Assembly (NCBI RefSeq): GCF_002865645.1 | Contig: NW_020194620.1 | Location: 193,353-257,352, forward strand | Reading direction: 5' to 3' | Length of the DNA: 64,000 bases | Source of the DNA: Hyaloscypha bicolor E | Lineage: Eukaryota; Ascomycota; Leotiomycetes; Helotiales; Hyaloscyphaceae | Shown here: one piece after another, positions 27,443 to 56,672 of the stretch | How positions within the stretch are numbered: the stretch's first letter is position 1 | Layout of the letters: each line of letters starts with the position of its first letter | Made by a program: the position numbers and the translations under genes | The notes under the pieces: generated by a model | What the model was told of the DNA's origin: nothing | Databases searched by the model: none | Seen by the model: only the letters and a program-made list of their open reading frames with translations

Positions 27443-28285
27443 AAGACCGCAGAGGAAAGCTGGAATCGAAAAGCTGACGGATAGAACGGGAATCCAAGGA
27501 AAGAGGCAGACAGATCGCCATATGGAACACTTGCTGGTGTTTGTTTTTCGGCAAGGGGAAGAGCCAGAAATCGCGATGAGATGTCGAAGCATCTGCCGAG
27601 GTGGGTGAAGCATGAAGAAACAAAGCGAAGGGTTTAGAGAAACAGCGAATATATTTTGAAGCTTTGTCGGGAGTGACGAAGCTAGACTTTTGCTTCAGGA
27701 GTTAATAGAGATGCACATTGTGCGAGTCATCGAAACTAAGGCCGCCGATTCCACAATTAAACTCTTCCAAGTCACTCGCTAGCCTCGACTTCACCAACCG
27801 TGGATTGTCCACACCAGTCACGCATCACTATATTTCGTAAAGAACCCAATCAACTTCAATTTCACTCCCCTGTACAAGGAAATCTCAACGTCAAAATCCG
27901 TCGCCAATGACCGCAACTTGAAGTCGCTCCTCGACACGTCACGTGAGCGGCTCACGGACAGCACGCCATTCTTGGTTGCGACACCCCACCATACACCCTC
28001 TTTTTTGGCAATCATGACGTAGAACAAACAAGTCCTTCACTCCCGCACGATGCTTGCAGTCACCGTTTGGCTAGAGAGGCTTTTCCAGCGCCGCAATTGG
28101 AGGATTTTAGCAACAAGTACGGCTTTGTCCAAGTTCCGCTGGCCTAGAAAGTCTAAAACTCCTTTGAAGGACGCGAGCTTGCGAGTGTGGGCTGATGGCT
28201 CTTGAGTCTTGAATGAAGTTGTTAGGAAAAGGGGAAGTGAAGTTATTTTTAGGTTTAGAGTAGGCCAGTCCTCAAGGGATTTAGC
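27443..28285. other. intergenic, left flank of the transposon
   Basis: A 69-codon minus-strand frame (27818-28027) has no domain. The last five bases (28281-28285, TTAGC) are one copy of the transposon target duplication. Confidence 0.4.
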
Positions 28286-28325
28286 TACGGGCTGATTTAG
28301 CGACGCTACTGCATCTATTATTTTA
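28286..28325 (+). repeat. left terminal inverted repeat
   Basis: Contains TTTAGCGACGCTACTGCATC followed by TATTATTTT. Its reverse complement is found at the right end. Confidence 0.9.
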
Positions 28326-28451
28326 TCGCAATCGCAAAATGAGAATTATGAATCGAGATTTTTTTTAAAGCCATATTTTATATGGAAAACACACCTAATA
28401 ATGGCCAAATACGCAATTCCCATGCATTATAGTCGAATGCGCCCAGTACTA

Positions 28452-29110
28452 TTACTCTGTTCTCGCTTTTTTGAACTGCCCCCGATTATCCCTATGTCTT
28501 GACCTATTCCCCGGCCTATAATCACTATCCCCTGGTAATTCCTTCCCTCCATCGTCAAGATCTGATCTATTATCGTCGTTATCGCTTGATATAGTCACTT
28601 CCACTTGTCGCTTCCTCTTTAATATAGACTTCAGAGGAGGTTGAGGAGGTTTAGTAGGTGGAGCGGGAGCGAAGGCTAGTAAAAACGTCAGATCTACTAG
28701 TATATCTAAATTTATTAAAACTTACTAGCTATAGGAGCAGAAGCAGGAGCAGGAGTAGGAGCAGGAGCAGGAGAAACCGTAATTCTAGCTTCTAGCATAG
28801 GCATATCGTCCGAATTAAAATCGTCAGAATTCAGGTTATTACCTGACCCATTCTCTGAAGGAGTAACCTTCTCCCATAGGGCTTCGATCTGTTGATTAGG
28901 AGTCGAAGCAGGTAAAAAAGATGCCGTAGATATAACTATAGATATAGATATTACGTTGGGGGTGGTATCAGGAGAGCCTCCTAATAGGGGGCTAAAATCT
29001 AGGAAAGGTATCTCCCTATTAGCTCTTTTATACTTATCCTGAATCTCGTTATCTCTTTCCTGAATTATATTAATATCTTGATCAAATATAAGATAAATAT
29101 GCTTTGGCAA
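28452..29110 (-). pseudogene. C-terminal part of the transposon protein
   Basis: The frame 29110-28715 has an acidic then Pro/Ala-rich composition (PAPAPTPAPASAPIA). Through a GTAAGT...ACTAG intron (about 28680-28727) it joins to PPTKPPQPPLKSILKRKRQV, an acidic run, and QFKKARTE before TAA at 28452-28454. This is the best-preserved coding part of the element and has intact splice sites. The basic KRKR stretch may be a nuclear signal. It is cut off from its start by stops upstream. Confidence 0.6.
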
Positions 29111-32100
29111 GCTCCTATTTAATTAGTTAAAGTAAGATAATAAGCCATTAATATCCTTTTTAGCTTTAAATATCTGGCTAGTTATATAGTCGATTCTCTT
29201 ATTTTTGTCTCTTGGCCAAACCTATTTATATTAGTACTAATTCTATTAGGATACTAGTAAATAATAGCTTACTTTACTTGTAAAAGAGACTATATTTGTA
29301 TATTCTAAGATTATAATCCATTAATTAAGCTCCTAGTTTTCAAATAACGGAATTAATAATAAAAAAGCCTTGGCTAAATATATAGCAAAATCCTTATATA
29401 ATAGTTTTTGACTATAATAAATAACTATATTAGTAAAGAGGTATATGTTTCTATAAGTAAGCTTTATATATATATTAAACTGTTCTACTATCTATAGCTC
29501 AATTTGAATATTTTGAGCCTCCCGGTACTCTTCCAAGCTAAGGAACTTCTTTATAGTCGAAGCAGGTATACTCGTCCCAGTAAAGCTACTCTCTAGTTCT
29601 TCTATTTCATATATATATATAGTATAATAGAAATAAGGACCTTATATTGTTTTTCGATAATAGGAGCAGGAGGGATCATCGATTTACCCTTACTAAAGGC
29701 CTTTATATATATCTCCTGGCCAAGAGTAAAAGATCTAAAGGCTTTACCCCTTTTCTGGGCCGAATCTAATAAAATTAGTAAATAATATATTAATATTAGA
29801 AGTTAAATAGATAGATACGTACTTTCGCCCTGAGATTCCTAATAGAAATTACTACGTAATTGCTCTAAACGTTCGAGCTTAGCCTGCTGCCTTCTCTTAT
29901 ATACTTCTGCCTCAAGGACCTTCTCTAAGAGATCTATATCCGGAGGATAGTAAAAAAAATAGAAATTAGCTGAGATATTAATCCCTTAATCTCTTAATAA
30001 TTAGGCAGTAGTATTTTGAAGTTGGGTTTAACTAGAAAATAGTATACCGTCTAATATAATAATTAGTATAAGAGTAATAGGAGCCGGAGGAGGAGCAGCA
30101 GGGTTAATCGCACCGTATAGTAGATACTTTACTATAGAGGGGGGGTATAGTGCCTCCTGTATAAAACAAGAGTTCTATAGATTAATATTATCTATTATAA
30201 ATGTTTGGGGATAAAAGAATAAGGATTTGATTTATAATCAAATATTAGAAGGAGAGTATAGCTAATAAATCTAATAGTTTAGTAAATAATAGTATAAAGA
30301 TAATTAGTAGGATAGAACCATAATATATTAATATTATTTTAATCCTTTAGCCTATATTCCTATAACTTTTTCTCTAAAGAATTTATATACTAGGGACCCA
30401 TTTCGAAGATTATTAATAGTAGTATATTACTAATATATGAAAAGGAATAAATACAAGAACTATAAGGAATACCCCTTAGTATAAATTAAAATTGGATTTA
30501 TTTTATTTATCCCTAGTATTATTATTACTTAAAACATGGTTTCCTATATTAGGGGCAATAGAATATTAAGTAAGGGGCTATAGGAATTAAGGGGGAAAAA
30601 TTAAATTCTATATATTAAGATATAATTCTTGTTATTTTTACTAAATATATCTTATAATTATTTTAAAAGTTTATAAGAACTATTAATTTAATAAAGCTAG
30701 TATTAACGGAGAATTTGATCTATACTATAAAGTCCTTACTACCAAAACAATAAGTTAATAGAATAATTATAGGGGATATAGAAATTAAAAGAGTAGGGGT
30801 CGATTTTCTGAGAAGGCAAATCATATAACCTTTTAATATTAAATTAGAAATAAATCACCTGTAACTATATGAATTTGACTTATTAAATAGATTACTATTA
30901 ACTTCTATATTTAATTACTTTAGTAAATATTAATATTTTTAGCTAATTCTTTTTTTGGAATATATATTAATATATTCTTATTTAACTTCTCTAATACCGG
31001 ACAAACCGTCTAATATTTACAGGAGGAATTTCTAGATTATCTTTCTCCTCTGCTTTAGACTCAGATATATATCCATCTTCTATAAACTGCCTATACTCTT
31101 AGCCATTTATAACCCAATTGCCATTTGCCCTATTAAAAGTAATACTATCTATAGTAAATCCAGTACCTCCCGTATTATTTTTAACCTCCGCTTTATTATT
31201 AGAACTAATATAGATAAGATTTTTATCTCTATAGCTAGTATTTCTTTCTTTATTAATAAACTAAATACTATCTTAATTATTATAATCCTTTAGCCTTGCC
31301 TCCTCTAATTCTATAGCTACCTCTAGTAATAGATTCCAATTATATATATCCTTGGGTATTAATAAAAGCCCTAGCTTTAGACGAGTATTCTTCGTATTAA
31401 TTAGGTAGTCAGTAATTGATTCCCTTAAATATATATAAGTACTCAGGTGGTTTATCTCTCTATTCGAGTCACGTATAGATTCTATAATTAAGAGTATAAA
31501 GCCGGTATCCTTAAGTTCTTATTCATACTACTCAAGTATAACCTCCGGTAAATATATATCTTTATTATAGCTAGTATATCCTTTATATAGCTCGTTTAGT
31601 TTATTAATATTAATAGGAATATCATAGTCCCTGACCCCCTTTTATTCTGAAAACATATAGTTCTGGAAGGGTTAGCCAGGAATAATATATAGATAATTAG
31701 GCTATTTCCTAATTAAATAGATATTTCAAACCCGGATAAACTCCTTAGTTTGCTCTCGTATAATAGGCAAATAGACGAAAAGCATAGCTATATAATCGGG
31801 GAGAAGTTTGTAAGAGTAAAGCCTTTAAAAGTATAATTACTTAAAAAATATCTTTTATTTATTTAGTATACCCTATATAATATTAGCTAATTAAATTAGT
31901 CTATAGGATTAGACTAAATAAATTACCTTTGCAACTTGCCCCTACTATATCTCAATTCATTAATTAGCTATACTAGTCTCAAACCAATAAAGATCTAAGA
32001 ACTAATATGGATTAATACCCCTTATTTAGTACATCGCTTTATAAAGAATATAATAGGTATTAGTAACTATAGGTATTTCGTATTCTCTATCCGATTAAAT

Positions 32101-32399
32101 ATAAAATGGAATAATCTCTATTTCATTTACTAAGTCAAGATATTAAACTAGGATAGTAACCTAGAAGGTAGTATAAGTAAATATATATTAGTATAATATT
32201 AATCAGGCCAAAGAAGAATATAGTATAGAGATTCAGGGGTTTTATTACCTAAATTAAGTATAATTCAAATAACTAGTTCTCTATAATACTATAGAATTAT
32301 ATAGCCGGAATTACGACTAAGTAAATATTGGCTATTTGTAAGGGGGTATATCTATACCGAATTAGGAAATAATACTACTTATAGTATAACTATTTGAGA

Positions 32400-33176
32400 T
32401 TCCAATATAAATCCAAGGTATAAACCGTAAATAGGTATTAATACCGGTATATATCTTAATACTACAAAATCGTAGCTAAGTAAACGTATTAGTAGTTATT
32501 CAAATAATGATTTTTAAAGTTAAGTCCATACTATACTTACCTTATAATAGCTATTAATAGACTAAATAAAGTTCGGTCCATAAATATTATATTCTCCTCT
32601 AGCTGCCTTTATCTCTTCCGAATAATGCTATATACTTTCTGGATCAAGTTCCTATATTATAGAAGCTATTCTATTCCTAGAAAACTTCTTGCTATTACCT
32701 AGGAAATTGAGATAAGTATATAGAAGCCGGTATCCATAACTTCTAGTATTGCCCTATAGGCCTTTATCCACTATATATTACTTGAGGATATAGCGAAGTT
32801 GCTTCTTTTCTAGCTCAATTTGCGAATTAAGTATTCGATGTCAAAGCCCTATAGCTCGGCGAACCTGCTATAATAATTATAGATTAGGAATATTATATCC
32901 TAAGCTCCGGAGGTTGGTAAGTATATTGGCATTAGTCGTATGGATATTATAAAAGAACTATATGATAAGAGCCTTTACCTGAGGAGAAGGCTCGAATATC
33001 GAGCGTTAGGAAGGTGCTTTCCATTCGGAAAGCCTATTGCATAGAGTTCTAAGGGAAATATCGATATTAAAGTTATACTGTAACCTCTCAATAATCTCCT
33101 CATATAATAGCTGTTGCTTAATTAAATAAAGAATATGGGCTTAATAGCAATCGATATTAATCTTTAAACGAGCCAT
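32400..33176 (-). pseudogene. N-terminal and core part of the integrase-type transposase
   Basis: From ATG 33174-33176 the frame reads MARLKINIDCY(stop)AHILYL, then TLCNRLSEWKAP, TNANILTNLRSLGYNIPNL, QVRRAIGL and HYSEEIKAARGEYNIYGPNF. This is a helix-turn-helix N-terminus followed by the start of the DDE core. An intron-like GTAAGT...TTGTAG lies in the GPNFIW-SID region. More than a dozen TAA/TAG codons interrupt it. Confidence 0.7.
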
Positions 33177-33435
33177 TACGAAGAGGTTAATAATAGAAGA
33201 TTAAGGAATTAATAATAATAAAGGAATAGAAGTATGAACGAAGTATATAGGAGGGCTAGTATGTCAGGGGGCATATTACGTATATTTTATTGAATTTCCT
33301 ACCCTATTGCATTCCTACCATGGAATGCGATAAAACACCATATAGATCGACTGTTTTAATTATATTCAACTATAGGTATTAGTTATATTATTAATAATAG
33401 TACATTTTTGAAATATCGTCGAATTGATTTTCTCA

Positions 33436-33475
33436 AAAAATAATAGATGCAGTAGCGTCGCTAAAGGAGCCCGTA
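33436..33475 (-). repeat. right terminal inverted repeat
   Basis: AATAATAGATGCAGTAGCGT and onward to CCCGTA mirrors the left end. TTAGC follows directly. Confidence 0.9.
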
Positions 33476-34813
33476 TTAGCTAGCGTTTGCGGGCAATTTA
33501 TTGGTCGCTTCCAGCGGTTCAAATCTCCGTCCCGTTGGCAACTTTCAAGCTTTCACATCAATCCGAGTGGAACTTTTCTTATGCTTCAAGGTGGACAATT
33601 CATATGCCGCATTGAGACACGGGATTGTTATTCATCAATATCAGTAAAAGGGGGGGGGGGCCAATTCCAGTGTTTCGTCCAAGCCTCTGAATTTCCGACG
33701 CGCTGGCTTCTTGAACCATCAGTCACAGACGATCAGTGACATTCGCCGGCGTAGGGCAAAGAAAGTGGTTGGGCGCACCAATTCCCCCCCTCTGTGGTGA
33801 ACTTTCCGCTCTGGGCTGACATCCAAAAGCAATATAAAGATCATTCGATGCATCAGATCATTGTATTGCCTCATCAAATTTCGTGGCTAGCTATGTTTTA
33901 TTGTGACAGGATTGGGTTTTTGTTTTGCTTTTCTGGTGCATTTTGCCGAGAATCCGGGGTACCCCTCATGGTCTTCCTCTTCGTTCTCAACAATTCAGTC
34001 CTCTTTTCATTTGTATCCAACAAGTGGCCGGTGGCAAGTCGACCTGTCCGACTTTTCTGTAAATAACTTTTTCCCCCTTTATTATAATGTTCTCAAAACA
34101 GGGTGGCCGATGGGTCGATTGAAATTTTCGTACTTGGGCCAGGAATCGTTTGCAGATTGCAAAAGGAATGAATATTAAGTAAGTGCCAAAGGGAGTTCGC
34201 ATCGAGCCATTTGTTGGCGTATTCCCTCTCATTTCAGGCAGAATAGCTTCTAGAGTATGTCACTTCTCTGCTTTTGTTATCGATTTGTCTCAAGATCAGG
34301 GGGTGGTCCTCTCAGTGAACCCCGCACGGTGTGCCCCATCCAGTTGCATTAGTGGATAGTCACGTTACGCCACTACCAGTTGTTAACTCAGGGCCAATTC
34401 AAAAATGGACTGTGGCGATTGCCTTCCCAGCATCACCCTTAGCTGACCACTCTACCCCTTACACAGCGTTTTCTGTCCCGTCACTAATAATGATCCGATT
34501 TGTGAGGTTTCAAGCGAATCGATCTTCAAAACCTAGATTTTCTCAGCCTCTTCATTTCCGTGTGCGATCTCTTTCGGCCGGGGGCTTAAGACCAAAGCCT
34601 ACGCTCTATGAGCATACGAAAATATTGCGTTGCTCTGAACCGGAGATGCCGCTATCGAAAGAGATATCCAGGCGTTCCGTAACGCGATGAGGTTTGAATT
34701 TCATCATAAGGTAGCAACCTAATAGTTTGCCCATTCTCTCCAAGCTCCCTTATTCTGTCCATCCCAGCCATCTCATACTTTCCTTTACAGTTTTGCATCG
34801 TCACACATTCAAG
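33476..34813. other. intergenic, upstream of the repeat-exon gene
   Basis: A G9 run lies near 33652. Several short frames (33794-34178, 34331-34690) have no domain. Pyrimidine-rich sequence precedes the ATG at 34814. Confidence 0.4.
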
Positions 34814-37800
34814 ATGGCACCGTCATTCTCTTGGCTGCCTGTTTACTTCCTCTCCCTATTCACACTCGTTCAGGCAGCTGATGTTCGCGCTTTGCTTAAT
34901 GAACGAGCTGCCTGTGTTTCAACAGCCACAACTACTCGGACAAGTGTGGTAACACAGACTGTCAAAACCACAACAACTCACGAGGCAACAAGCAGGACAA
35001 AGACCGTTACCACAACAGTCCTCGCAACCTCAACACCAACGATCACAGTAAGTATTAGGAGATAGAACCTTTCAAGTTCTTTCTGTCCCCTACAAACAAT
35101 CTTTCTCCAAAGTTCATACTAAATCGCCCACCACGCAGGTCACAAAAACGATTGCCAAGTCCACGATTACAGTTGCTGGTTTCCAGGGCGTTACTGTCAC
35201 ACTATATACCACAGAAAGTGATACCTTGACCGATTTCTACACGAGTACATCGACAAATGTAGAAGTGGACGGCACGACCTTAACAAACACGGAAACTGAC
35301 CGTGCAACGATCACCAACACACAGTAAGGAGAATTGGTTTCTTAGATTCTTTGTCGCAAGTCCAAAGACTGCATCCCTTCGTCTTTACGCTCCCAACACA
35401 GCCTCTATTATTTAATTCGACCTTAGGAAATTCAAAATTAGAACAATGCTAACCCCACGATGTTCTAGGGTCGACAGCGCAACAATTACAAATACCCAAA
35501 CTGATTCGGCAACGATTACAAATACTGAGTAAAGCGATCCGGTTCCTAGATCCTTTCGTCCCAAATTCCCAGATTATTTTTCTCTCTCATATACCCTCGC
35601 AACCAATCCCGTAGAGCATCTCAGCTTCAATTTGATCCCGGGAATTTGCCAATGAGATGAATACTGACTCTCGGTGTTTCAGGGTGGACAGTGCAACTAT
35701 TACAAACACCCAAACTAATTCCGCAACGTAAGTATCCCGAGACATTGTCCCAGCTCTCAGGGAACACTCTGAATCAGGTCCGTGTTAACTCTCTTCTCCC
35801 AGGATCACGAATACCGAAGTGGACAGTGCTACGATCACGAACACACAGACTGAGAGTGCAACTATTACCAACACGCAGACTAACTCTGTAACGTAAGTCT
35901 CCCGAGACAGTCCCAGTTCTCCCAGAACACCCCGCATCTGGTATCTGCTAACTTTCGTTACTCAGGATCACCAACACCGAAGTGGACAGTGAAACTATCA
36001 CGAATACCCAGACTGACAGCGCAACTATCACAAATACTGAGGTTGACTCAGCGACGTAAGTTTTATAGGAGAAACGCCTCTGCAATTCTTCTTCTCTCGG
36101 TTCTCACGAATAATCTTATTAAGCACTTACTAATTTACATCTAGGATCACAAGTACCGAGGTTGATAGTGCTACAATTACCAACACCGAGGTTGACTCAG
36201 CGACGTAAGTGCTATAGGAGAAACGCCTCTGCAATTCTTCCTCTCTTGGTTCTCACGAATAATCTTATTAAGCACTTGCTAATTTACATCTAGTATCACA
36301 AGTACCGAGGTCGATAGCGCTACAATTACCAACACCGAGGTTGATTCAGCAACGTAGGTTTTGAGAGAATCTCATCTGAATCCTTCAAAGTCCTACCAAA
36401 TGAGCTATTCGGCGCTTACTAACATCCTGGTACTTTAGGATTACGAATACGCAGACCAATAGTGCAACTGTCACGAATACGGAGACTGATTCAGCAACGT
36501 AGGTGTTGTGGACGAACCTGCTCTCATGCTCCTATTTCTGAAGGAGCACGCCTTCTCAAAAACACTTGCTAACTCCGTATCTCTTAGAATCACAAACACT
36601 GAGGTGGATAGCGCAACTGTCACGAATACAGAGACTGATTCTGCAACGTAGGTGTTATGGACGAACCTGCTCTCATATTCCTATTTCTGAAGGAGCACGC
36701 CTTCTCAAAAACACTTGCTAACTCCGTATCCCTTAGAATCACAAACACTGAGGTGGATAGCGCAACTGTCACGAATACGGAGACTGATTCGGCAACGTAG
36801 GTAGCGGGAGATCTCCTTCCAGGTTATTTTCAGTTTGCATAAAAACAATAATCTATCTTAAGCACATGCTGACTCTACCTGTTACGCAGAATCACTAACA
36901 CTGAGGTCGATTCGGCTACGATAACAAACACAGAGGTTGATAGCGCTACAATTACCCGCACTGAGGTGGATTCAGCAACGTAAGTTCGAAGGAGAATCCA
37001 CTTCAAAATTTTCTCAATTCTCTTGCTAATCTGTCCACGCAGGATTACGAACACCGAGGTTGATTCTGCTACTATTACGAATACAGAGGTAGACTCAGCT
37101 ACGTAAGTTGTCTCATAGTTTCTCCTGAGGCATTGTACCAGGTCTCCTGAACCCCTCTGTATTAAACACTCACTAACGCCGGGGGCATCCAGGATCACGA
37201 ACACTCAAATTGATTCAGCAACAGTTACCCGAACCGAAGTGGATTCTGCGACGTAGGTCTGGGGCCGGAAGGACCTTTCATTTTTTTTTCATTGTCTCAC
37301 GGAATTACTCGAGACATTATTCCGGTTCTTACAAGACACTTGCTAACTCCCGGCAGGATTACTAATACTGAAGTCGATTCAGCCACAATTACCAATACAG
37401 AGGTTGATTCAGCAACGTAGGTGTCATAATTCCTCATAATCTTCTCGTCTACTCTAGTCAAAGACTGAATCATGCTTGCTAACTCCTCTATTCCCCAGAA
37501 TAACCAATACGGAAGTCGATTCGGCAACCGTCACTCTTATTTCCACCGCTTTTGCAACAATTACTTCAACTGAAAGCGACTCAGCTACAGTGACCTTGAT
37601 CTCAACAAGTAAGCACTCTTTTATTCTTCAATATGCTCACGAGGCATTCTGAAAGACTCAACTGGCAAATGTCCCGCAAGTTGCCGGGCATTGAAAAGAT
37701 GCTAAATTGTATTGCTCAATTTGATCCCGAGAAGTCGTGAAATCTCTCTACTGGTATGGTTCAGTCTGCTTGGGGATAATTTTGAAAATACGAAAGACGT

Positions 37801-38742
37801 TTCTCCTTACTCTCAACCACCACAGCCTGAAAGAACCTTAACCCACCAAATGTCCCTCAAGTTATGGAACATTCAAGACAACGCTCCACTATTATTCAAG
37901 ATGCTCTTAGGGCATTATTATAGAGAGAAAATTACTAATTCGAATATTCTAGGCTACGTTACAGCTTACTCCACCATTACCTCAACTCAGAGCGATCAAG
38001 CAACAGTTACAGCTACAAGCTACATCACTGCATACTCCACAGTATCTATTACCATCACCGGAACCAATTTCTACACTCTCTCGACGACGGTTGTTGATAC
38101 GAGCCTCATTCCAGGCACTACAACTGTATCGACGACTATCAGCGCTATTTCTACCGTCACCAGCTTTGTGCCCACCACACTTGGTACTACATTCACGACG
38201 GTGCAAACAACGACGTGCACTGCGGCAGCGATAGTAAATGGAGGCTTTGAAACCGTTCTGGCCCCCAACCCGTGGACTACTTCGGCACCCAATGGCTACA
38301 GCGTCACCACGAGTGGCCCGTCAACCCCGTCAGGAAAGCCACCCGGTCCACAAGCAGGTCAATACAACGTGTAAGTTCCATCTCTTGCGTTAATCATGAG
38401 CATACTCTTGACAAATTCTGTAGGAAGCAAACATTCCCTGCCAGCGCCGGCACTTCCAACCTTGTCACTTTGAGCCAGAAGATATCGGCTTGTCCCGGAC
38501 AATCGTACACACTGACTGGGTGGGCTGGAGAGGTGATTTCTGGCACATTCACCGGAAATTGTTTTGCTAAGATCTGTGCTGACGGCGGCTGTGGATCCGA
38601 GGCACCTCTTACTACCACGGCCTACTCGCAATTCAGTTACCAGTTCACGGCTTCTACCAGCCCTATCACAGTCAGTGTGGTGACTTACTGTACAAGTAGC
38701 AAAGTTGCAAGCGTGTACGTGGACAGTATTTCAGTGGCATAG
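34814..38742 (+). CDS. 18-exon secreted protein with about 31 Thr-rich decapeptide repeats and a C-terminal CBM-like domain
   Basis: Exons: 34814-35047, 35139-35323, 35469-35528, 35683-35727, 35803-35892, 35966-36055, 36145-36204, 36294-36353, 36439-36498, 36588-36647, 36737-36796, 36890-36979, 37043-37102, 37193-37252, 37357-37416, 37499-37608, 37953-38370, 38424-38742. All introns are GT-AG and the sum is 2121 bases (706 residues), a multiple of three. A signal peptide (to about VQA-AD) is followed by a Thr-rich region and repeats of TITNTEVDSA with variants (Q for E, T for V, N for D). The C-terminus starts IVNGGFETV and resembles CenC-type carbohydrate-binding beta-sandwiches, with several Cys. 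Exons 3 and 5-15 are 60 or 90 bases and encode whole repeats; exon 4 is 45. A wall-associated or adhesive role is inferred. Confidence 0.85.
36056..36353 (+). repeat. 149-base tandem duplication (intron + exon), two copies
   Basis: 36056-36204 and 36205-36353 each hold an 89-base intron and a 60-base exon and are nearly identical, including intron interior (GGAGAAACGCCTCTGCAATT). Confidence 0.9.
36499..36796 (+). repeat. second 149-base tandem duplication (intron + exon), two copies
   Basis: 36499-36647 and 36648-36796 again combine an 89-base intron with a 60-base exon and differ at only a few bases. The intron sequence differs from that of the 36056-36353 pair. Confidence 0.9.
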
Positions 38743-39492
38743 ACAACCAGGCTCGTGGGAATAGGATTCATTCGTTTCTCTGCTTATAGCAGCTTCCCTT
38801 TGTGCTAATCTTTCCCTTTCTTGAAATCCTGTCCGCGGAGGCATCCAGAAAGTTTTTTTTTCTGTCGGACTATCGGAAAGATATATATAGCGAGGAGTTT
38901 CTCGAGGAGAATTTGTTCCAAGTAATCTTAACGATTAAGAAATAATAAGTCAAATGTACCACCCGGTCTATGTTCATCCGCTTCCTATAGCTATAAAATA
39001 TATAGCGAGGAATTGACGTTCTCCGCGCTCAGCGCTCTCTATTGCATAGCCATTGGCTTGTACATCGCAATAACCAACCCTTGAAACAGGGGGTATTCGT
39101 GGACAAAGGCTTCCAGCTGAACCAAGGAGTGTCGACTGGGGGCCTACCACCAGCTCCTGTTACAACCATGCACCGCGAACGTCTTAATCGGGGTGCTCTT
39201 CCATGGAGATATTGACGATGGCCTGCTCAGGTCTGCTCACCTATTAAATCCTCTTGCTAGAATTCGCCAACTTTTAACGAAGAGCATGAAAGAGACACAC
39301 CCTCCACCCAGTCAGGGTCAAAAATTTGTCACTGCCGTATATCCTTAGATGCTCAGAATTCCTGCATCATATCATCTACCTTTACGTGTCTAAAAACGGT
39401 TCGTTGTTCATTCGGGAGCAGGGTCGCGGCGGAAGAGTACCAACTGAGTGATGGGATATATAGGCATTTTACTATATCATTCGCAAGTCCTG
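38743..39492. other. convergent intergenic gap
   Basis: Two similar TATATAGCGAGGA words occur at about 38885 and 38998. No gene was seen. Confidence 0.4.
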
Positions 39493-41217
39493 TCATTTAT
39501 ACACTTTTCCATCCTTCATTACGAATTTCACTTTCCTTATGGCCCCTATATTCTCTGTCGGGTTATCGTCTAGGGCGATGAGATCAGCAGCCCAACCTTC
39601 TTCTACTAACCCAAATCTCCTACCACAAAGGTCTCCGCCACAGGATTCCCAGCCGTGTAGAGTAGCAGCCTGCAGGACATCCGATATCGGGATACCCGCT
39701 TCCACCATTAGCTCTATCTCCCGCGCGTTCTCACCGTGTGCAATAGCACCCGTGTCACCGCCGCAGGCAAGTTTTATGCCTTTGTCGTAAGCCGCTTTCG
39801 TATGGTCAAGGATAGCCCCTAAAGTACGCTCTGAGTCCTTGCCACCTCCTCTACGAATCTCGGAGTCGAAAACGGAAAGCGTTGGGACGAATATCGTACT
39901 ATTTTCTTTCATAGCCTGCAGTGCTTCTTCGCTGGGCATACTGCCGTGTTCGACTGAAGTAACGCCAGCCTTGGCAGCCATGATGACCGCTTCTGGGTCC
40001 TGTGCATGCGCGGCTATGGGCGCTCTTCTTCTTTTTGCCTCTGCTACCATCTCATTCATCTCCATCTGCGTGAACTGAAGCAAGTTAGGGTTGCGGTCTC
40101 CTGTGAACAAATCGCTCGAGGGTGGGAACATTGTTGAAATTGGTACGCTACCATAGCTAGCTTACCAGTCCTTCCAGCACCAGGTTTAACCACTAATTTA
40201 GGGTTCTCCACTCTCATTTGTCATGCGTCACTCGCCGAGCTTACCAAGCTTACTAGTATATTGTCATTTTGATTACCTTTGGTTTATCAGCTGATTGATA
40301 ATGTATCGGAGAAAGCGGGTTCGGCATCACCGGTATCGCCGAAGGGTAATGGGAATAAATCCCTTACTTTGGACACTTTTCCTCTGTTTCCAGAACTCAC
40401 TCTTCTGTATCTAGTCATTCTGTAGTCTGTCAACCTTCAATAAATCGATTTTCCATTAATAAATCGATTACTTTTCAATAAACATGATGTCCCTCCCACC
40501 TGGCCAAGCTGCAGGAGGAAATCGCAGCACTCGTTTGCGATAGTCGGCGTAGAACTTCACTGTGTCTGCGCATGCCCCGAGTCGTCTGCGAACAGCAGCT
40601 CGCACTCCGTCGACCCCTTCGGCAGGATCGGATATCCTGGGCACAGTAGTCCCTCCCGACATACCGTTCTCCTGCCTGATCGCGTAGCCACTGCTGGAGG
40701 CGATGCATTCTGTGGCGACAAACATCCGTGGGCCGGGAATGATGCCTCGGTTGATAGTGTCTCTGAAATGGACGTCTGCATTCCCTAGCCCTTCCGTACC
40801 CAGATCACGATACGTGGTGTAGCCCGCCTCCAGCGCGGCTTTGGCATGATTTGTAGCACGCACGATCCTCTCCACGAAGCTTTCATCCCGCTCTTGGTTC
40901 AGCGATGGTGTCTCGGAGTAGGCATGCAGGAAGATGTGTGTATGTGCGTCCACTAAGCCTGGGAGCACTGTGAGGCCTCGAAGGTCAATTGTATTCGAGC
41001 TCGAGACATTACGAAGAGGTAATTAGTCTCGCTTGAAGACCCTGGTGATGAGGCCGGTTTCAGTGTCAATTACAATAGAAGTTTCCGAGTCGAGCTTCTT
41101 GTGCTTGGAGTCGAATAGAAGTGATGTGTGGACTGTGAGTTGAGAATTTGGACCCCGAGGCGCTGTATCTTTGCGCATGCTAGGCTGTCGCGTCATTTCC
41201 CACGGGAATTTCCACAA
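39493..41217 (-). pseudogene. amidohydrolase (imidazolonepropionase-like) split by a solo LTR
   Basis: The N-terminal part (41217 to about 41023) has the small beta domain (SIVIDTETGLITRVFKRD), then a TAA, and continues in the same frame with LRGLTVLPGLVDAHTHIFLH, the first metal-binding HxH motif. The frame runs to GGRDIMF near 40486. After a 349-base insertion it resumes with PPSSDLFTGDRNPN (40126 down to 39493), including PIAAHAQ (a metal His), SVEHGS and CGGDTGA (an active-site Asp). Without the insertion the two halves would form one amidohydrolase of about 430 residues with all expected metal ligands. The insertion adds stops (IEK-stop), so the gene is dead; the TAA near 41023 is a second lesion unless a small intron removes it. 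Confidence 0.85.
40132..40480 (+). mobile_element. solo LTR, 349 bases, with AACAT target duplication
   Basis: The insertion starts TGTTGAAATTGGTACG and ends TTACTTTTCAATA. AACAT flanks it at 40127-40131 and 40481-40485. It has LTR features: a GGAATAAATCC TATA-like word near 40350 and CAATAAA near 40437. The end CAATA probably was CAACA, so the terminal CA was lost by a C to T change in a CpA context. No internal retroelement sequence is left. Confidence 0.8.
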
Positions 41218-41968
41218 AAATAGTTGTTGACTTCAATGGACAATTGAGGAGAGTGAGCGGCTCTTTATTTGTGGTCGCAATAAAGGACAGGCAGCACTGC
41301 AATCTCGATGACATCACATGGCGCCATTTTCCCACCTTCCTATTCCGGAGTCGAGAAAGGGATTCTATATCTACGTTGAAAGTTCTCAAACAGATTTAAA
41401 TCTTTCTGCTACATTATTCGCTTCGATTGATATAGAAGGGGATTAAATTTTGTTTCAAAACCAGGGAGGAAATGTCTTTAGGGATGTCTTGGAGGGGCAG
41501 TGAGGGGTAACTCTCGGTCCTCTCAGGGCTCCTGGTGAAGTGGGGCATTGTGAGCTGAAAATCACCTCTCACCAGCTCAAATTGACATAGACGGAAATAG
41601 AAACTGGCACGAAAGCAGAAGAAGGTTTTCGTCTTCTGGGCGGTTTCGTCCAGCCGGGGGCATCTGATTAGCCACTGAATGAGCCGAGATGCAGTATAGA
41701 ATTGGCGGTTGTCCCGCCCCCGACGGACGTGAATGGGAGCCTATAAGAAAAATATTGAAATGGGAACAATATGAAGGTGCAAAACTGACATATTGAGAGT
41801 TGGCAAGGCCTAAAATAACTAAAGTACAGGTAGAATAAGAGTAAAAGCAGAGAGAAAAGTGTTTAAAGTAAAGTTCTTATCTGTATTAGCCTTTAATAAT
41901 ATAAATAATACCAAACTCACTTTCTCCGATATATTATGAATTAGCTAATAAAGCAAATAACTATATAT
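41218..41968. other. intergenic
   Basis: No gene was seen. AT content rises after about 41800. Confidence 0.4.
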
Positions 41969-42190
41969 TGTGGTGGGGATTTTACCCCTATTAGTCACGT
42001 GGTACGGTCATGTGACCTCCGGACGTCCGCAGTCCGCAACCCGCTTATATATTACCCCTCTTTCCTTCTTAGTTTAGAAATCAACTAACCTTCACTCTCT
42101 AATTTCACTCCTCACTCGTATACTGTAATCCCACGCTGTGGAAGCCCATTCTACTATCTATATTACTCCGTGTTTTATATCCCCATTACA
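41969..42190 (+). mobile_element. probable solo LTR, 222 bases
   Basis: Begins TGTGGTGGGGATTTTACCCC and ends ATATCCCCATTACA. The inner TATATATTACCCC box followed by a pyrimidine-rich leader is typical of fungal LTR promoters. ATAT occurs on both sides, a likely but short target duplication. The second LTR was not found in the window. E-box-like CACGTG lies at 41997-42002. Confidence 0.6.
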
Positions 42191-45100
42191 ATATTAGTGA
42201 GTATTTAATAAGCTCTGCAAGTAATGCATTACAAATAAGAGTAGAGAAGACTAAATTAGTAATTGAATCTAGTATTAGAAGAAATAGAAAGCTAGCCAGT
42301 GTGAGAGGGAAACTGTAACAAGACAAAAACCCATATAAAGTATACCAGAGTGCAAAACGTGACTTGACAGCAAAACAACAAGATCAAAGGTATAAACAGT
42401 AAAGCATAAACAGTGTGCAGTATGCAAAAGCTCAATTGATTAAATATAGAGGAGGGATTATTATCTAGAACTACAGAAAAACCAGCTTTCTTATGTGATT
42501 TCCGCAAGTCACGTGCAAAAGGCCCTAGCCTTTATTATGTGACCAAAATATCAAAACTGTCAAAATAAAGCGATTTTAATAGAGTACAGCTTGCCGTACT
42601 ATACCAGGCTAGTATATTAGTTTTAATATATTTCCTTTTTATACTCGAGGTTTAATATTATTAAGGCTAATAAGCTCTAGTATTTAATTATATTAATTTA
42701 AAAGCAAGTCTAATAATTAATTTAACAAGAATATTAGCTATTATTTTGTGATATATATAGGGTCGCATGTGACTCAAGGGCATGTAATGAACTTCGGATA
42801 TTGCGTGTATTAATTAGAGAGATCAACGGCTCTTTAATATTATAATTATACTACTATTTATATTATAAGTATTAGGCTTATAAATTACTAATTATATATA
42901 TATTATCGGGGCCTCCTATTTAGAGAAGGCTTCTCTAGACCTTATAAGAGAAATAGAGATTAGTTCTATACTAAATTTAATACTATAGTTTTATAACTTA
43001 CTAATAAATACCTCATATATTTTCTTTATAAATATATACTTAAAATTCATTTTCTTAATATTAATATAATTCTTAATAAAATAGTATTTAATATTAATAT
43101 ACTTGATTTTTTTTATAAAAGTTAAATATTTATAACTAAATATAAAATACTTTAAGTATTTGTTTTTACTTTAATTAAACTAATAAAAATTAATATTTTC
43201 TTAAGTAATTACTTTAGTTATAAATCTTCCATTATTACTAGTATTAAAGAAAAATATTTAGTTATAATAATAGCTATAATAAATTTTTATTTATTTAATA
43301 TTAGTTTAATTAATTAAATTACTAAATAAAATAAAATTGTATTAATAATTATTTTATAATTTTATATATTACTTTCATAATTAGTAATAAAGTATTTAAT
43401 AAGCCCTTTATTAAATAAAGTAATATATAAAATACTATAATTAAGTAATTTCTTAATATATTATATTACTTGCTTTTATATAAATATATAAAAGACTTTA
43501 AAATATAAATCAAATTAGCTTAAATAACTTATAATAAAGTAAAAATCGGCTCTTAATACTAGAGAAAGCTATATAAGTAATCTAGTACTATTTTAATGCT
43601 TTATAATATTAATATCCTCTTTATTTAGAGCTATAACTTGGGCTATTAATTTTGATATAAAACCACAAAATTGTTTTTATTGAACTCTTGCCCTAAATTC
43701 GTTCCCTGTAGAATACCAAGGGTCAAAATGCCCTGTATTCCAGATACTCTATACCGCGACCTCCGTAGATACTCAACAATGCGAAAATATTACACTGTAA
43801 ATATGAATAACGTTCTGAACTTGACGAGATTTACGGAGAATAGAGAGCTTGTGGTTTAATATTTTCAAAGCTATATTTCGGTCAAAACTGGTCTCTCCAT
43901 ACACCCAGTTAGGTTGGTCGATCCTGACGAATTAATCAGCAAAAACATGTCCAGCTCAGGCTTGGCTCAACCCCGGCTTAAGGGGGCTCAGAGCCTCAGT
44001 CCTACACTGCCACGGCTCTAGCTTGCTCAGCCTTGCTCAGCCTTGCTCAAGTTCAAGTCCAGCTTGCCTCAGGTTGCTCATGGTCTGTTCAGTCTCGCTC
44101 ACGGTCCCGGTTTTCGATCCTCCTTATTATCGGGATAGCCATGCATAATTAGCGTGGCACCTCAAAATCAATTTCAACTCTATGCGATGAGTATACAAAA
44201 GCTTGTACAATTCGCCGATATCCACTACTCATCTCCGTGCCAGGACAAATCACGGGTGCCTCAACTTCGCAGCAATTCAGATTTTGTGCGCAAATACATC
44301 TCCTCATAATTCTCCCAACAGTTGCAAGGTGCTTTTCGCTCAGCCTTCTATGGTGTTGCTTAGGGCGTTAACGCTTAGCTCGAATAATCAATAAAAATAA
44401 TCAGATGATAAGAAAAGTTTAGGAGGTTTCACTGGCCAACCGCCCAAACTACTCAACCGCCCAAAATTAAAATCTTAATATTTAATTAACGCCTTAATAA
44501 AATTTTAATTCCTATTGAATACTAATACTTTATAGTATTCTTAACCCCCTAATGGCTATATATTACTTTAAAACTATTTGGTATTGCTAAAATTATTTAT
44601 TTAGTAGCATTTTGGCATTTTCCCACTGATTTTTACCCTGCCATCTCCACCCTTCACTAATTTCTATACAATTAATTAAATATCTTATACAATGTCCTAA
44701 ATTCTTTGGTAATATATGGCTTAATATAAGAGAGTATATTAGAAGGTTTTTTGCATTATTATAATAACATTTCTTATTGAATTTTCTTTGGGGTAAGAAT
44801 TAGTGTCTTGCAACCCCCTTTCCCGGTTTCGCACTGGCAACATGTGTTACTCGGAGGTTCAGTCTCTCCCAATCTATCGAATCTTAACACATCGTGTTTT
44901 ATACAACCACAGAAATTCGCGGTTGCATTTGAAAAGCTGGAGAACGCCTATCGCTTTGCGCTGCGCCTCCACCATTGTGGGCGGTGCAAGCGCCATGCTG
45001 CTATGTGACGAATGCTAAAAGTGTGCATCGGGCACTCTCATCAGCCATTATTGAATGCAGGGTCTCACTCGTAATATCTTTAATTCCCTGCATCTCCCTT

Positions 45101-45192
45101 TCCCACTGTCCAAGGCTCCCACACTTCCTGAGCAGTTCTCGATCAACTTTCCAAGCTGGACAATTGACTAGAGGACACTGGACAGGTTTGAA
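42191..45192. other. AT-rich decayed DNA and intergenic sequence
   Basis: 42600-43660 is extreme AT sequence without open frames. Its minus strand gives short stretches that loosely recall the Copia RNase H region, too weak to call. 43660-44400 has normal composition with degenerate CTTGCTCAGC repeats, and 44400-44790 is AT-rich again. No gene was supported before 45193. Confidence 0.5.
44021..44050. repeat. three tandem 10-base units (GCTTGCTCAG-like)
   Basis: GCTTGCTCAG, CCTTGCTCAG and CCTTGCTCAA run head to tail, with looser copies up to 44105. Confidence 0.7.
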
Positions 45193-48100
45193 ATGGACAT
45201 TCCACAGAGTGAAGACGAGGCACGGGCTCATATTGCCCAGATTCGAGCTGCTAAAAGTTCGGACGATGAGACGAGCGATACCTCCGATCTTGAAAACGCT
45301 CTCGTCATGTAAGACACACCCGCAGAGACAGTCTGCAAATTGTATCATCGCTGATTGCATTCCGCAGCCTGGCAGAGCAGCTTTACCACAAATCTACTCA
45401 TTTTCTCCTGGAGCTTATCCAGAATGCTGACGATAATAATTATGCATCCTCGAATCCAACGCTTAATATCACCCTCGCCGGGCGTACATTGCGAATCGAC
45501 GCAAATGAGGTTGGCTTTACCAGACGTAATGCCGAGGCCATCTGTAGGATTGGTCGAAGTACAAAAGCAGGCCTCGATAAATCAGCAGGATATATTGGCG
45601 AAAAAGGCATTGGCTTCAAATCAGTCTTCAAGATCGCCGATATTGTTTGGATCCACTCGGGGCACTACTCCTTCATGTTCGATAAGAATTCCAAGCTGGG
45701 TATGATTACACCGGTTTGGACTGTGTTCCCATGTCCGCCAAAGGCTGCTTTCACGTCAATGTGCCTGCAGCTGACGGACGATTGCAATTTAAGCGAGCTC
45801 CGAGCCGAAATCAAATCGTTAGACACCAGGCTTCTCATCTTCCTCCGCAAATTACGAGAAATCAACATAGTCGTTCATGAGGAGACTTTCCCCACGTGGG
45901 AAACAAAGTTGAAGTGCGAAGAGGTCGGAACAACAAATGGCGAGGAACTGATCAAGCTTCACCAGGATGAAGAGTCTCGATTGTACAAGATCATCCGTCA
46001 TGCCATCTCAGGACTTCCACAGGAAATAAAACGTCCTGGTTGCCATACCTCCCAAATTGTCCTTGCCTTCCCTCTCGTCGACTTCGATGGGCCCTCGATG
46101 GTGTCGCAGAACGTGTATGCTTTTTTGCCCATACGTGATTATGGCTTCAAAGTGAGTAACTTCATAACCGCTAAAAGATTCCCAGCTAAGCATTCTAGTT
46201 CTTGATTCAAGCAGACTTCCTTCTGAGTGCAAGCCGCGAAGAAATCGACTGCTCTTCGCCGTGGAACCAGGCATTACTAGAGAACATTCCCCAGGCATTC
46301 CGCCTAGCTGTTGACGAATTCAACTCCGGAGACCTCAGATACTCCTGGGTAAAGTTTCTTCAAAATAGGTCGCCATGTTCGGACTTTTTCTCCCCCCTCG
46401 AAGGCGCAATCGTTGAAGAGTTGTCTACCTCGCCAATCCTAGAGTCTCAAAGTGGCGCGCTCATGATCCCGTCCAATTTAAGAACGGTCCCGGTCTCGAT
46501 GCTTGGAGATGATGAGCGGCCATTCCTCCCAAGCGATCTGTCCTTGTCCAAGTACATCTCACCGAAGTATCCCCTCGAAACACACAGGGCCGAGCTCGCG
46601 TTTCTGGGGGTAAAAGATGTTACCCCGGAAGAGTGTGTTGACGACCTGAAGGTGTTCATAACATCCTATCCAGAAAAGTTCCACAGTATGCCTCAAACTT
46701 GGCACTCGGGCCTCTGTAAATTACTTTCTCAGTTTTCAGAGGGTACAGCCGCCGTCAAGAACAAGGTGTCTTGTTTAGAACTCATTCCCCTCATCGGCGG
46801 TCAATGGATATCATCCTCGCATCAAGACTTGTACTTCTCCGACGAGAAAAAGAAAGACGTCCAGATTCCGAACGGCTTGGAAATGAAGGAGATCGACTTT
46901 GTAGCAGCGTCTGATCTTTCAAGACGGAATCTTTACATGCTACTAGGGGCTCGAATGTGGACGAACGAAAAGGTTTGCCAAGCCATCACTTCGACTCATG
47001 CATCTCGTTCATTTCGCCCCCAAAATCTTCCTCCCAAGGATCTGATTTCCCATATTATGTTCTTGTTTCATGCAAATTGGACAAGGGTTAAACCTAAGAG
47101 TCTATGGCTTGTAACGGAGTCCGGTACAGCGAAGGCTAGTTTCGATGCATACATAGACTCCGATAAGTCTTTTTCTGCTTCTATACTATTCGGAAAAGAC
47201 AGGAATTTATTTCCCTTCATACACAGTGACTACTTGGCAGTTCCTCCTAACACGCAGCCCAAACTGAGGGCATGGATGGTGGCGAACCTTGGCGTGGCAG
47301 ATATTCCGCGAATGGTGTCATACAATGACTCGGAGCCGGAGTTGAGTGAGGACTTTCAATTTCTTCTCAGTCATGCGGATTATTTACCCGTCCTATTACT
47401 GCTGAGGGATAATTGGGATCATTACGCCAAATGGATAAGCGAAGAAAAGAAATCTGCCAGAGAATGCGCGCGGCAGGTGAAAGAAGCAATTGGCAACCTT
47501 TCGGTGTCCTGCAAAGGTGGCATATCTGCGATGCTGAAAAAAACCCTTCTACCGACGCCTAACATGGAGGCCTCAAGCTTGGTATCCATGTCATTTCTTG
47601 AAATTCCAGAGCCGGAGCATCCTCAATGGAGACAGCTCCGTCATTTTGGCGTTCTTGTCACCCCCGGTATTGGCCCATTTATCAAGTACCTAGAGATCTT
47701 GAAAGAGTCCGGGGGTACGTCGAAGGAGGCATCTGAGCTTTACAAGCAGTTGCACACTCAATGCAACTTGGATCCAACACTTATACCGTAAGTCAAAATC
47801 ATCTATCGGGGACAAATGCCCGACATTAACAAATAATAGGGCTTGTAAGAGCGCCTTTGAATCAGATGCACTGGTATTTACACCAAAGTCTGCGAGATGG
47901 ACCGGAAAAGAATGGCATGGTCTTGAAAGCTGTGTTTGGGACGGACCGACCTGTTTAAGGAAAATAGCCTGCCTTTCGCGATTCTATCCGGAGCATTATT
48001 CTTTCTTTAGCATAACGCTAGGTCTGGGCAACGCGGATTGGACCACCCTGGCAGGTGAGGCTCAAATGATCGAACCCTGTGATCCCCTCAAGTACATTTC

Positions 48101-51100
48101 GGCCATTTTTGAGTTGATAAGTGAATACTTCCCAGCATCGGAGAAATCAAAGGCTACCAAAGCAAGGACGAAAATGATTGCGGCTCTTACAAGGTCAACT
48201 ATTGTTCCAGTTGACGAAGGAAAGTCTGGAAGCACATTCGACTATCTAAGTACTTCTCAAACGGACGCAACGTGGCTCATTGCTGACAGACCACACCTGA
48301 AACATGCATTTCGCGGTCACATTCCCCTGCTTGCCCTCGACGAAGAATCGATAGCGAAGATTGGTCCTCTTATGATGGCTCTCGGCTGGAATAGGAGATT
48401 ACTTTCCCGCCTTGCCCATGGAGTCCCAGATGCTGGAAGCGATGCGCAGCTAAATGACGACTATACGAGAGTCATTCACACTAGGGCTAGGTTCATTGCA
48501 AGGTAAGTACCATCCAATCCGCTCTAAGATAGTACAAGTTATCTTTAATCTCCCCCATCGACCTTTCATGCTCACAGGGTAGTACAGATTGTTGAAACCG
48601 AAGCTTGCAAATAGGAAGGCCATCATCGAGCAGCTATGCAACGCAAAAGTGTTTGTCGTAAGAAGAATCACTTTGAGATGGGCGGTCAAAGTGTCCGGTA
48701 GAGGAGAGGTTGTAGGGCGAGCCGATTCTGGGCGAGTAAAAATCGCTGTGGTGGGCAAATGTCTGGAAATATTCCTTCGCAAAAGTGATTCTGATATTTC
48801 TCGTCCGCCTCTCGAGCTGCTGGAGGAAATGACCAACTTCTGCCAACTGCTTGATGCCGCCAATGTTGCCATCCTTCATGGCGTGATGACTGTAACCAAC
48901 GCTAGTGATATGGATGCCATATTCGGGAGGCGGGGCTTGCAGAAAGATGCACCAGAATTCACATCCCTACTAGATTCGAAGAAGCTAAACCCAGACTTTT
49001 GGTCATCAATGGGGAACGGAAATTATGGAGACGATGATTACTTGCGAGATCGTGACGCAACTTTCGATGCAGTGTCAACCTTCATGGCTCGCTTCACCGC
49101 ACTGAACCGGTGGGACAACACCAAGGCACGACCATGGTCATCAATCAAAATGGATTCAGTGCTTTCCCACTTATGCAGACTTGAGAATGTCGATCCATAC
49201 ACACTGCTGCCACGAACGGTAATCTCGCCCTGGGACAATAGATTACGACAAGCAGGTGCTTATCTCGACGACCCAACCTCAATCAGCTTCATCACTGGTA
49301 CCGAAAGCTTTGGGAAAACATCTCGCCTTCGGCCTACTCAAGCCTTTCCGGCTCTTGTCAAAATTGATAGAGCTAAACACACCGTAATTGAAATGCTGCC
49401 AGCTTCGACGGTAGATGTCGCTAGAGATGTGATGCTAGCTGGCGAGCTCTACGTTTGTCCACTCTTCACGACACTGCCTTGCCGACAGACTGCTAACAAG
49501 TGGGACAGGTCTCCAAGTTGCTCGAGAACGAGTTGGGTGAGGTGTACAGCCCCGTTCTGCACTGGACCAGCTCACTTCGGCAAAAAGCTGGACTAAGCCC
49601 ATTCACGGGGGATGAGAATGAGGCATCGACTTTCACGATTAAGGACCAAGACGCCGCGCATGCCTTTGCTCATATGCTGACGAGAAAGGGCCACCCCATA
49701 CCCGACAAAAGCATCGGGGCCCCAGTGTTCCACATCGAAGTTGTCACCACTGAAGGAGGCCATATGTCCAGGTTTGCACTTGAGCCGTCCCAGGTTCAGA
49801 AGGTGAGTTTGCGTCGCTACTTGCGACTTCATTATTGTTTTCCGCCTTCTAACAATCTTGAGTGCCTCGCTTTTGCTAACATTTATTCAGGCCTGGAAGT
49901 GCCACCAGACTCGAAAAGTCAATGGCACACTCGTTACGTTTGGCGAGGTGTTCGTACTCATTCGTATAGTAGATGTTCGCGAATACCCTCAGGTAGCCCT
50001 CTATGTTGATCCGTGGCAAATGCACGCCGCCGGAGAATTGCAACTGACATCAGCATCTCGCTTCTCGGCAGCGTTCCAAAGCGCTCCTCCCTCCTCTGTA
50101 TTGTGGGACATGACGTTTGAAAAAGGCCGGCCGTCAAGAAAGAGGAAGAGGTCCGACACGGAGACGGTCACGGACGACACTCCTGTAATTCCACCGTCCG
50201 AACGACTGTATACCTACACAGCTTTGAAGCTTCAGCAGATCAGACTCTTGGAACTGCTTCCCGGAGAGGACGACGACGCAATCGAAGGACTTGTTCAGCA
50301 CGTATCTCTATCCGAGAACCACAAATTCAGCGCCATTTCCTATGCATGGGGGCCTCCTCTCAAACCGTTCCACATTCAGACAGAAGAAGGCAAAATACCA
50401 CTGACTTCATCGCTCCATGCCGCTCTAAAGAGACTTCGAACTAGAACTGAGTCCGTTATCTTGTGGGCCGATGCCATCTGTATAGATCAAGCTAACGTCC
50501 ACGAGAAAGTGACTCAAATTCGACTGTTGCCAAAGATATTTCAATCCGCCAGATTGGTTTTTGCGTGGATCGGGAATGAAGAGGATGACAGCTACCAAGC
50601 TTTGCAGACACTACTTCAGATACGAACAAATCAAGTCAAACCAGATGTTTGGCCGAAAGGCTTGCCTCGTGTCCCACTGACATGGCAATACCCGGGCATC
50701 CCCCCAGTGAAGAGTGACGTGTGGAAGCACATTGCCGTGCTATTTCAACGTGAATGGTTTCGGCGGGCTTGGATCGTTCAAGAGGTTGTGCTAGCTTCTG
50801 AAGTAAGGATTGTATGTGGCTCTTGGGAGATCTCCTGGGACGACATCTTCTTCGCCGTCAAACTCTGTTTAGAATGGTCCAGCACGCTAGGAGTAGATGA
50901 TAATCGAGTCAGAGAAATGCTCTCCAGCCTGAAGCCATCGTACACCCTTGCCGAGACCCGGGCAGCGTTCCAGCAGATGAATCTGGCTCCTCGTTTTAAC
51001 TTAATGGCACTCCTGGATGAGTTTGCGCATACTCAGTCGACAAAAGAGTGTGACAAGCTCTTTGCGCTTCTCGGCATCTCTTTTGGTGCCGAAACCGCAG

Positions 51101-53020: not shown

Positions 53021-53048
53021 ATGGCAAAAGGTCCCAAATATATCACAG
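53021..53048 (+). promoter_or_regulatory. short upstream ATG exon in the H2A.Z leader
   Basis: An ATG in strong context (CTCACCATGG) encodes MAKGPKYIT and runs into a GTAAGT donor at 53049. It may be a short upstream frame split by a leader intron. It could regulate H2A.Z translation or be an alternative first exon. Confidence 0.35.
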
Positions 53049-56557: not shown

Positions 56558-56672
56558 AAGGATGGTGAGTCGATGTTGGGTAGAATTGTGTGTCATTACT
56601 GTTTTGCCCCTCTTTTGACCCGTTCGACAACTCATTCCTGACTCGTGCGCGAGACCTTCCCCAATCCCAAAT

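Follow-up and report, generated by a model that had tools for sequence, protein, structure and literature searches.

In a window of 64,000 nucleotides from the genome of Hyaloscypha bicolor E (contig NW_020194620.1, positions 193,353 to 257,352; all positions below are counted within this window), a gene was encountered in which almost every exon of a long repeat array is a whole number of decapeptides. This raises the question of how exon and repeat came to coincide, and whether the coincidence serves to vary the repeat number by splicing, as put forward in the initial annotation, or merely reflects the way in which the gene grew. Very probably, the gene at this locus is intact and encodes a repeat protein rich in Thr and Ser, probably secreted, the stalk of which grew by tandem duplication of modules that each consist of an exon and an intron.

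Gene layout and intron model

The gene (34814-38742, forward strand; Table 1) was modelled with 18 exons and 17 GT-AG introns. Upon in silico splicing, its frame is open from the ATG at 34814 to the stop codon at 38740-38742 and encodes 706 residues. The N terminus of the product resembles a signal peptide by inspection. Residues 132-431 form 30 decapeptides with the consensus DSATITNTEV, spaced by exactly 10 residues, and Ser and Thr together make up 44% of residues 132-441.

Table 1. Features of the repeat gene and of its surroundings in the window.
Feature	Position	Strand	Remarks
Exon 1	34814-35047	+	234 bases; N terminus (spliced translation)
Intron 1	35048-35138	+	Phase 0
Exon 2	35139-35323	+	185 bases; Thr-rich, ends within the first decapeptide (DRATITNTQV)
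Intron 2, exon 3 and intron 3	35324-35682	+	First family of modules; intron lengths 145 and 154 bases; offset 8.67
Exon 4	35683-35727	+	45 bases; bridges intron offsets 8.67 and 3.67
Introns 4-15 and exons 5-15	35728-37498	+	Second family of modules; exon lengths 60 or 90 bases
Exon 16	37499-37608	+	110 bases; end of the array, degenerate Thr/Ser repeats begin
Intron 16	37609-37952	+	344 bases; halves related
Exons 17 and 18	37953-38742	+	Thr-rich stretch, then C-terminal domain of ~150 residues
Intron 17	38371-38423	+	Between exons 17 and 18
Tandem duplication	35687-36034	+	Period 163 (90-base exon plus 73-base intron)
Tandem duplication	36018-36356	+	Period 149 (60-base exon plus 89-base intron)
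Tandem duplication	36459-36802	+	Period 149 (60-base exon plus 89-base intron)
Amidohydrolase-like gene	39496-41022	-	At least 2 exons; adjoins the repeat gene
DUF7703 protein	2694-3728	-	
HET-domain protein	49807-51273	+	
PI-PLC-X-like protein	56676-57863	-	

In silico splicing returned the lengths that the initial annotation had listed for exons 3-15 (60, 45, 90, 90, 60, 60, 60, 60, 60, 90, 60, 60 and 60 bases). All of them are multiples of 3 bases and 12 of the 13 are whole multiples of the 30-base repeat, the 45-base exon 4 being the exception. The uniform phase described there was recovered too, as all 14 introns from the second to the fifteenth are in phase 2, and the split codon is mostly AC/N (12 of these introns), with CA/G at intron 2 and GA/G at intron 3. 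Relative to the decapeptide, introns 2 and 3 lie at offset 8.67 and introns 4-15 (63-104 bases, AC/N) at offset 3.67; exon 4 counts 15 codons because it spans the step from the one offset to the other. A 15-base sub-repeat behind this half-unit shift was considered and rejected, the DNA identity at a shift of 15 bases being 0.26, lower than at shifts of 3, 6 and 12.

Support for the intron positions was obtained with a parser that is blind to repeats and reads only donor, branch-site and acceptor signals, with weights set by hand. When bound by the rule to take the first AG downstream of the branch site, it returned 14 of the 17 introns at each of five intron penalties from 4 to 8, the whole set of introns 4-15 (12 of 12) among them, while passing over exon 3 and shifting the acceptor of intron 17. 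Without this rule, 11 of the 17 introns were returned at penalties of 4, 6 and 8, seven at 10 and two at 12; the results with the rule cover penalties 4-8, those of 10 and 12 having been run only without it. In addition, the gene strand contains 13 instances of a loose intron signature, compared with 1.4 ± 1.2 (maximum 6) in 500 dinucleotide resamplings, and the other strand contains one. The donor is GTAAG or GTAGG in 16 of the 17 introns and GTAAAG in intron 3, and a CTAAC, CTGAC or CTAAT motif starts 14-21 bases before the intron end in 14 of the 17 (all but introns 1, 4 and 17). The introns are presumably spliced as modelled, and one full-length mRNA presumably prevails. Donors of the type GTAGGT are found in introns 8-11, 14 and 15 (36354-37422). 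At that place (+4), G accounts for 4% in Fusarium (PMC5677156, available text), and the GTAGGT donors were probably inherited by duplication.

Probable growth of the array by exon-plus-intron modules

Three pairs of neighbouring modules lie in tandem duplications, the periods of which comprise one exon and one intron each (Table 1). The introns concerned are 73% (introns 4 and 5), 94% (introns 6 and 7) and 95% (introns 9 and 10) identical, and the likeness extends across exon and intron jointly, the neighbouring modules being near-identical. When all 136 pairs among the 17 introns were aligned globally, only these three pairs exceeded a z of 5; introns 2 and 3 proved to be related in a later local-alignment test (z 10.2). 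Non-adjacent array introns never exceeded a z of 5 across their full length in the global alignments, so that the older duplications are inferred only from intron position, phase, codon class and the flank of the branch site.

This flank was compared over the stretch of 10 bases that precedes the branch site. Ten of the 12 array introns were used (introns 7 and 10 were omitted as near-copies, whereas introns 4 and 5 were both retained), and 4.9 of the 10 bases matched, compared with 2.5 ± 0.2 upon shuffling, a value reached in none of 5000 shuffles. For the five introns outside the array, the corresponding values were 4.9 and 3.2 ± 0.4, and 6 of 5000 shuffles reached the observed one.

The codon class bears on the size of the copied unit. 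The Ser codon is of the TCN type in all 12 intron-bearing units (offset 3.67) and in 5 of the 17 others (Fisher p 1.2e-4), the 30th decapeptide having Arg at this position. Since TCN and AGY codons are two base changes apart, this suggests that two decapeptides were copied together, the second of them holding the intron, rather than a single decapeptide. The ancestral module would thus have comprised two decapeptides (60 bases) with a phase-2 intron inside the second. Unequal exchange between such modules would add or remove ~20 residues at a time, and would do so in frame because both module ends split the codon after its second base. Changes in repeat number from strain to strain would be expected to arise in the same way, by unequal exchange.

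The repeat units are under purifying selection, with a pN/pS of 0.20 over the 30 units and entropies of 0.43, 0.29 and 1.46 at the three codon positions. Such mostly synonymous differences between the units indicate that they are coding, as a non-coding repeat would not show this pattern.

As to the uniform phase, a Fusarium species has 147 phase-2 introns out of 534 (PMC5677156, available text). At that rate, 14 out of 14 by independent chance would have a probability of 1.4e-8, whereas the copying of one phase-2 module yields the same result automatically. Tandem duplication of symmetrical modules in phase 2 is the most likely way in which the repeat gene grew, an evolutionary explanation that is well supported.

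Intron 16 is itself composed of two related halves (37609-37952; z 7.0, local alignment). Its first half weakly resembles intron 3 (z 4.1) and its second half intron 2 (z 4.0), and from these sequence likenesses it may possibly represent two introns around a lost exon.

Splicing variants, intron insertion and decay as other explanations

Because introns 2-15 are all in phase 2, the splicing of any of their donors to its own or a later acceptor keeps the frame in all 105 pairings, 14 of which are the normal introns. The statement in the initial annotation that exons can be skipped without a change of frame is hence correct. One reading combines the symmetrical array with the stop codon that is present at each repeat-intron donor into a splicing-controlled length ruler, by which stalk length would be set per cell through skipping or retention. 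Skipping would then lead to shorter proteins with both ends, and retention to truncations at a repeat boundary that lack the C-terminal head. In pentapeptide-repeat solenoids, four pentapeptides make up one coil. If the decapeptides form a solenoid of this kind, a 60-base exon (20 residues) would correspond to one coil, and splicing would add or drop whole coils. Such a ruler, which would make this the first fungal gene known to us that encodes a length series by splicing, is considered unlikely.

Still somewhat less likely is a series of truncated products only, in which the retention of a given intron stops translation at a repeat boundary, yielding either a protein with the upstream repeats and without the C-terminal domain or a decaying mRNA. 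When any of introns 2-15 is retained, the reading frame indeed meets its first stop at the second codon, TAA or TAG, which lies at the donor (14 of 14). Base +4 of the donor is A in eight and G in six of these introns, while C and T together amount to 54% at this position in Fusarium (PMC5677156, available text). Furthermore, intron retention is the commonest event of fungal alternative splicing according to the accessible text of PMC3925392. However, such a stop needs no selection where phase 2 is combined with a GTAA or GTAG donor, the 14 donors lack independence, and intron-retained mRNAs would probably be degraded. A calibration of base +4 in the strain's own genome gave intron-like counts close to those of the controls (10 versus 5.6, 44 versus 37.8 and 148 versus 157.9). 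Given the immediate TAA or TAG codons, clean truncation at a repeat boundary, or decay of the mRNA, would be the more likely minor product.

The explanation proposed in the initial annotation, namely that the symmetry has been kept so that exon skipping can vary the repeat number within one cell, is possible, albeit very unlikely. It agrees with exon lengths that are all multiples of three and with the 105 in-frame pairings, but tandem duplication alone leaves the same symmetry and needs no regulatory purpose. In addition, skipped exons represent 3% of alternative splicing in 23 fungal species, compared with 61% for intron retention (PMC3925392, accessible text), and array introns of 63-104 bases would fit intron definition. 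Whether a symmetrical exon array gives rise to skipping under intron definition might be examined on the repeat gene.

Highly improbable is the repeated insertion of a mobile intron, or introner-like element, into an intronless repeat array, even though twelve introns share one place in the repeat. The likeness between neighbours covers exon and intron together, and in the genome (82 Mb, 76 contigs), intron 9, the sole intron searched singly, matched only itself and intron 10 (E <= 10), whereas region 35400-37700 matched only itself (E <= 0.001). Mobile intron insertion is hence not favoured, as no copy of intron 9 was found outside the array. Least credible is a decaying pseudogene or a chance tandem repeat without product, to which the position in an island between AT-rich blocks with signs of repeat-induced point mutation (RIP) and a composite RIP index of the gene slightly over zero (0.04) might point, as this conflicts with 706 open codons across 17 introns, 13 intron signatures where 1.4 are expected, and the low pN/pS of the units.

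Known gene designs, relatives and predicted protein

The repeat gene has an exon-modular design, with repeat-multiple exons (12/13), uniform phase 2 (14/14) and three exon-intron neighbour duplications. This design is real and unusual. The initial annotation knew of no described fungal gene of this kind, and none was recognised in the titles and abstract openings of the open-licence literature; outside the fungi, close kinds do exist. The nearest known design, as far as the accessible text of the source goes, is that of the leucine-rich repeat (LRR) genes of Tetrahymena, with exons of exactly 90 bp of which more than 96% are flanked by phase-2 introns and which number ~72,000 in 10 species (PMC6564038). 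The authors of that study credit successive exon duplication, know of no other eukaryote with such uniformity and consider that it may have evolved once (PMC6564038, accessible text). The repeat gene shares with these genes the exact-length tandem exons that fit the repeat and introns that are nearly all in phase 2, but it is a single fungal gene, with a Thr-rich decapeptide and exons of 60 or 90 bases. No LRR family was found when the entire protein was scanned against Pfam (E <= 1).

Fibrillar collagen genes, with exons of 45 and 54 bp (PMC4450265, available text), are a second comparison. The likeness, within that text, consists of an extracellular repeat protein (predicted in the present case), exons that are whole multiples of the repeat, and lengthening by addition of exons. 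Fibrillar collagens differ in being metazoan and in their Gly-X-Y triple helix; their introns are in phase 0 and their exons begin with Gly.

Among fungi, surface proteins, including adhesins of the FLO type, carry Ser/Thr-rich repeats in variable number, and these repeats are not known to be split by introns; surface proteins with coding tandem repeats were reportedly described by Levdansky et al. in 2007. Unlike these, the repeat gene has an intron after every second or third repeat. Slippage inside one long exon is the usual account of how repeat proteins of fungi vary, whereas growth here proceeds by an exon and its intron at a time, as it does in the Tetrahymena LRR genes and the collagens. 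If general, this would mean that whole modules, separated by diverged introns, can be added in frame to fungal repeat genes. The SP7-like effectors of Rhizophagus are secreted repeat proteins with nuclear targets and a conserved intron before the first repeat (PMC11333574, available text). Here, the likeness is one of description, no layout with one intron per repeat being described in the available text (PMC11333574).

In the search for homologous genes, which the initial annotation had suggested, decapeptide relatives were found in the Sordariales, none of which shares the C terminus. A search with the whole protein gave nine matches among 7989 scored candidates, three of them named fungal proteins and the other six unnamed or bacterial. 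The three, hypothetical proteins from Canariomyces notabilis (P0001), Cercophora newfieldiana (P0003) and Lasiosphaeria ovina (P0005), contain 9, 8 and 5 decapeptides, respectively, as counted with one pattern, indicating that the repeat number varies between species. Their decapeptides are of the DSVTITNTET type and in exact register, as in the repeat gene. In contrast, their C-terminal halves are alike among themselves but not like that of the repeat gene (best BLASTP E 0.31). From these sequence comparisons, the decapeptide motif is probably older than the repeat gene.

The Sordariales proteins thus display the same stalk with a different, conserved head, and their tails are more hydrophobic, with Kyte-Doolittle means of 2.08, 1.31 and 1.77 for P0001, P0003 and P0005, respectively. 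The tail of the repeat protein, where a GPI-anchored wall protein would carry its hydrophobic signal, is not strongly hydrophobic, its best 15-residue mean within the last 30 residues being 1.06. For its C terminus, homologues were absent at E <= 0.01 from the 7984 top candidates that were scored, and at E <= 10 from 583 candidates.

Similarly, no paralogue was detected in the genome. With a query of 60 residues assembled from the gene's unit types, 15 of the 16 matches at E <= 10 lay inside the gene, the other one being 26% identical (E 0.76). With the C terminus as query, two of the three matches at E <= 10 lay inside the gene, and the third had an E of 0.79.

The product may be secreted and reside at the surface or in the wall, with a Thr/Ser-rich stalk, which is probably O-glycosylated, and a C-terminal binding head; the label of wall protein in the initial annotation is plausible. 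The C-terminal domain had no Pfam match. Against the PDB, its matches were weak, namely two xylanase chains (E 0.19 and 0.39), which we take to be CBM4 modules, and a third chain named Prt (0.76). Among the NCBIfam families, exon 18 came closest to a fimbrial usher (0.015) and choice_anch_C (0.08), both far below the cut-off. These weak hints would fit a CBM-like sandwich as head; exon 18, when modelled by itself with AlphaFold2, gave a poor model (pLDDT 49.7).

Concerning the fold of the stalk, the decapeptide carries the I/V spacing of pentapeptide-repeat solenoids. The family Pentapeptide_4 matched the whole protein at an E of 2.5e-4, but with 21.5 bits where the Pfam cut-off is 38. In the PDB, two contiguous pieces of 90 residues matched chains of pentapeptide-repeat proteins, at best E-values of 2.4e-4 and 3.4e-7, whereas none of three permuted pieces did so. 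The best of these chains, named beta1, are presumably designed pentapeptide-repeat proteins, and others bear that name. The Pentapeptide_4 match tracks the five-residue I/V spacing, as it was absent from all 14 permutations that break this spacing. Compared with real pieces of equal length (E 0.01 and 0.0046), three of five permutations that keep the spacing and one of nine free permutations scored better. Permuted repeats also matched unrelated families and chains strongly (2.9e-5 and 1.9e-5), indicating that the pentapeptide E-values are unreliable here. An AlphaFold2 model of the C. notabilis protein (mean pLDDT 33; 47-65 in the stretch concerned) contains nine strands of 6-7 residues, one per decapeptide, and suggests, at low confidence, one short strand per decapeptide in this relative. 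A Foldseek search with this model gave no match at E <= 0.001, the best being 0.84.

Regarding the surroundings of the gene, scans of the window returned no tRNA or Rfam matches, and an open frame of 605 codons (16384-18198, reverse strand) had no Pfam match at E <= 0.001. Further predicted genes are listed in Table 1. The introns, the RIP-like AT-rich blocks and the HET-domain gene are in keeping with a filamentous ascomycete. The diverged introns between the modules may limit slippage and perhaps repeat-induced point mutation, the gene lying beside RIP-like blocks. Two AT-rich blocks (28001-34000 and 42001-44000; GC 0.28-0.36) flank the repeat gene. Their indices are RIP-like, with a TpA/ApT of 1.19-1.25, a (CA+TG)/(AC+GT) of 0.75-0.92 and a composite index of 0.29-0.48, the latter ranging from -0.40 to -0.61 in 1-28000, 39400-42000 and 44001-64000.
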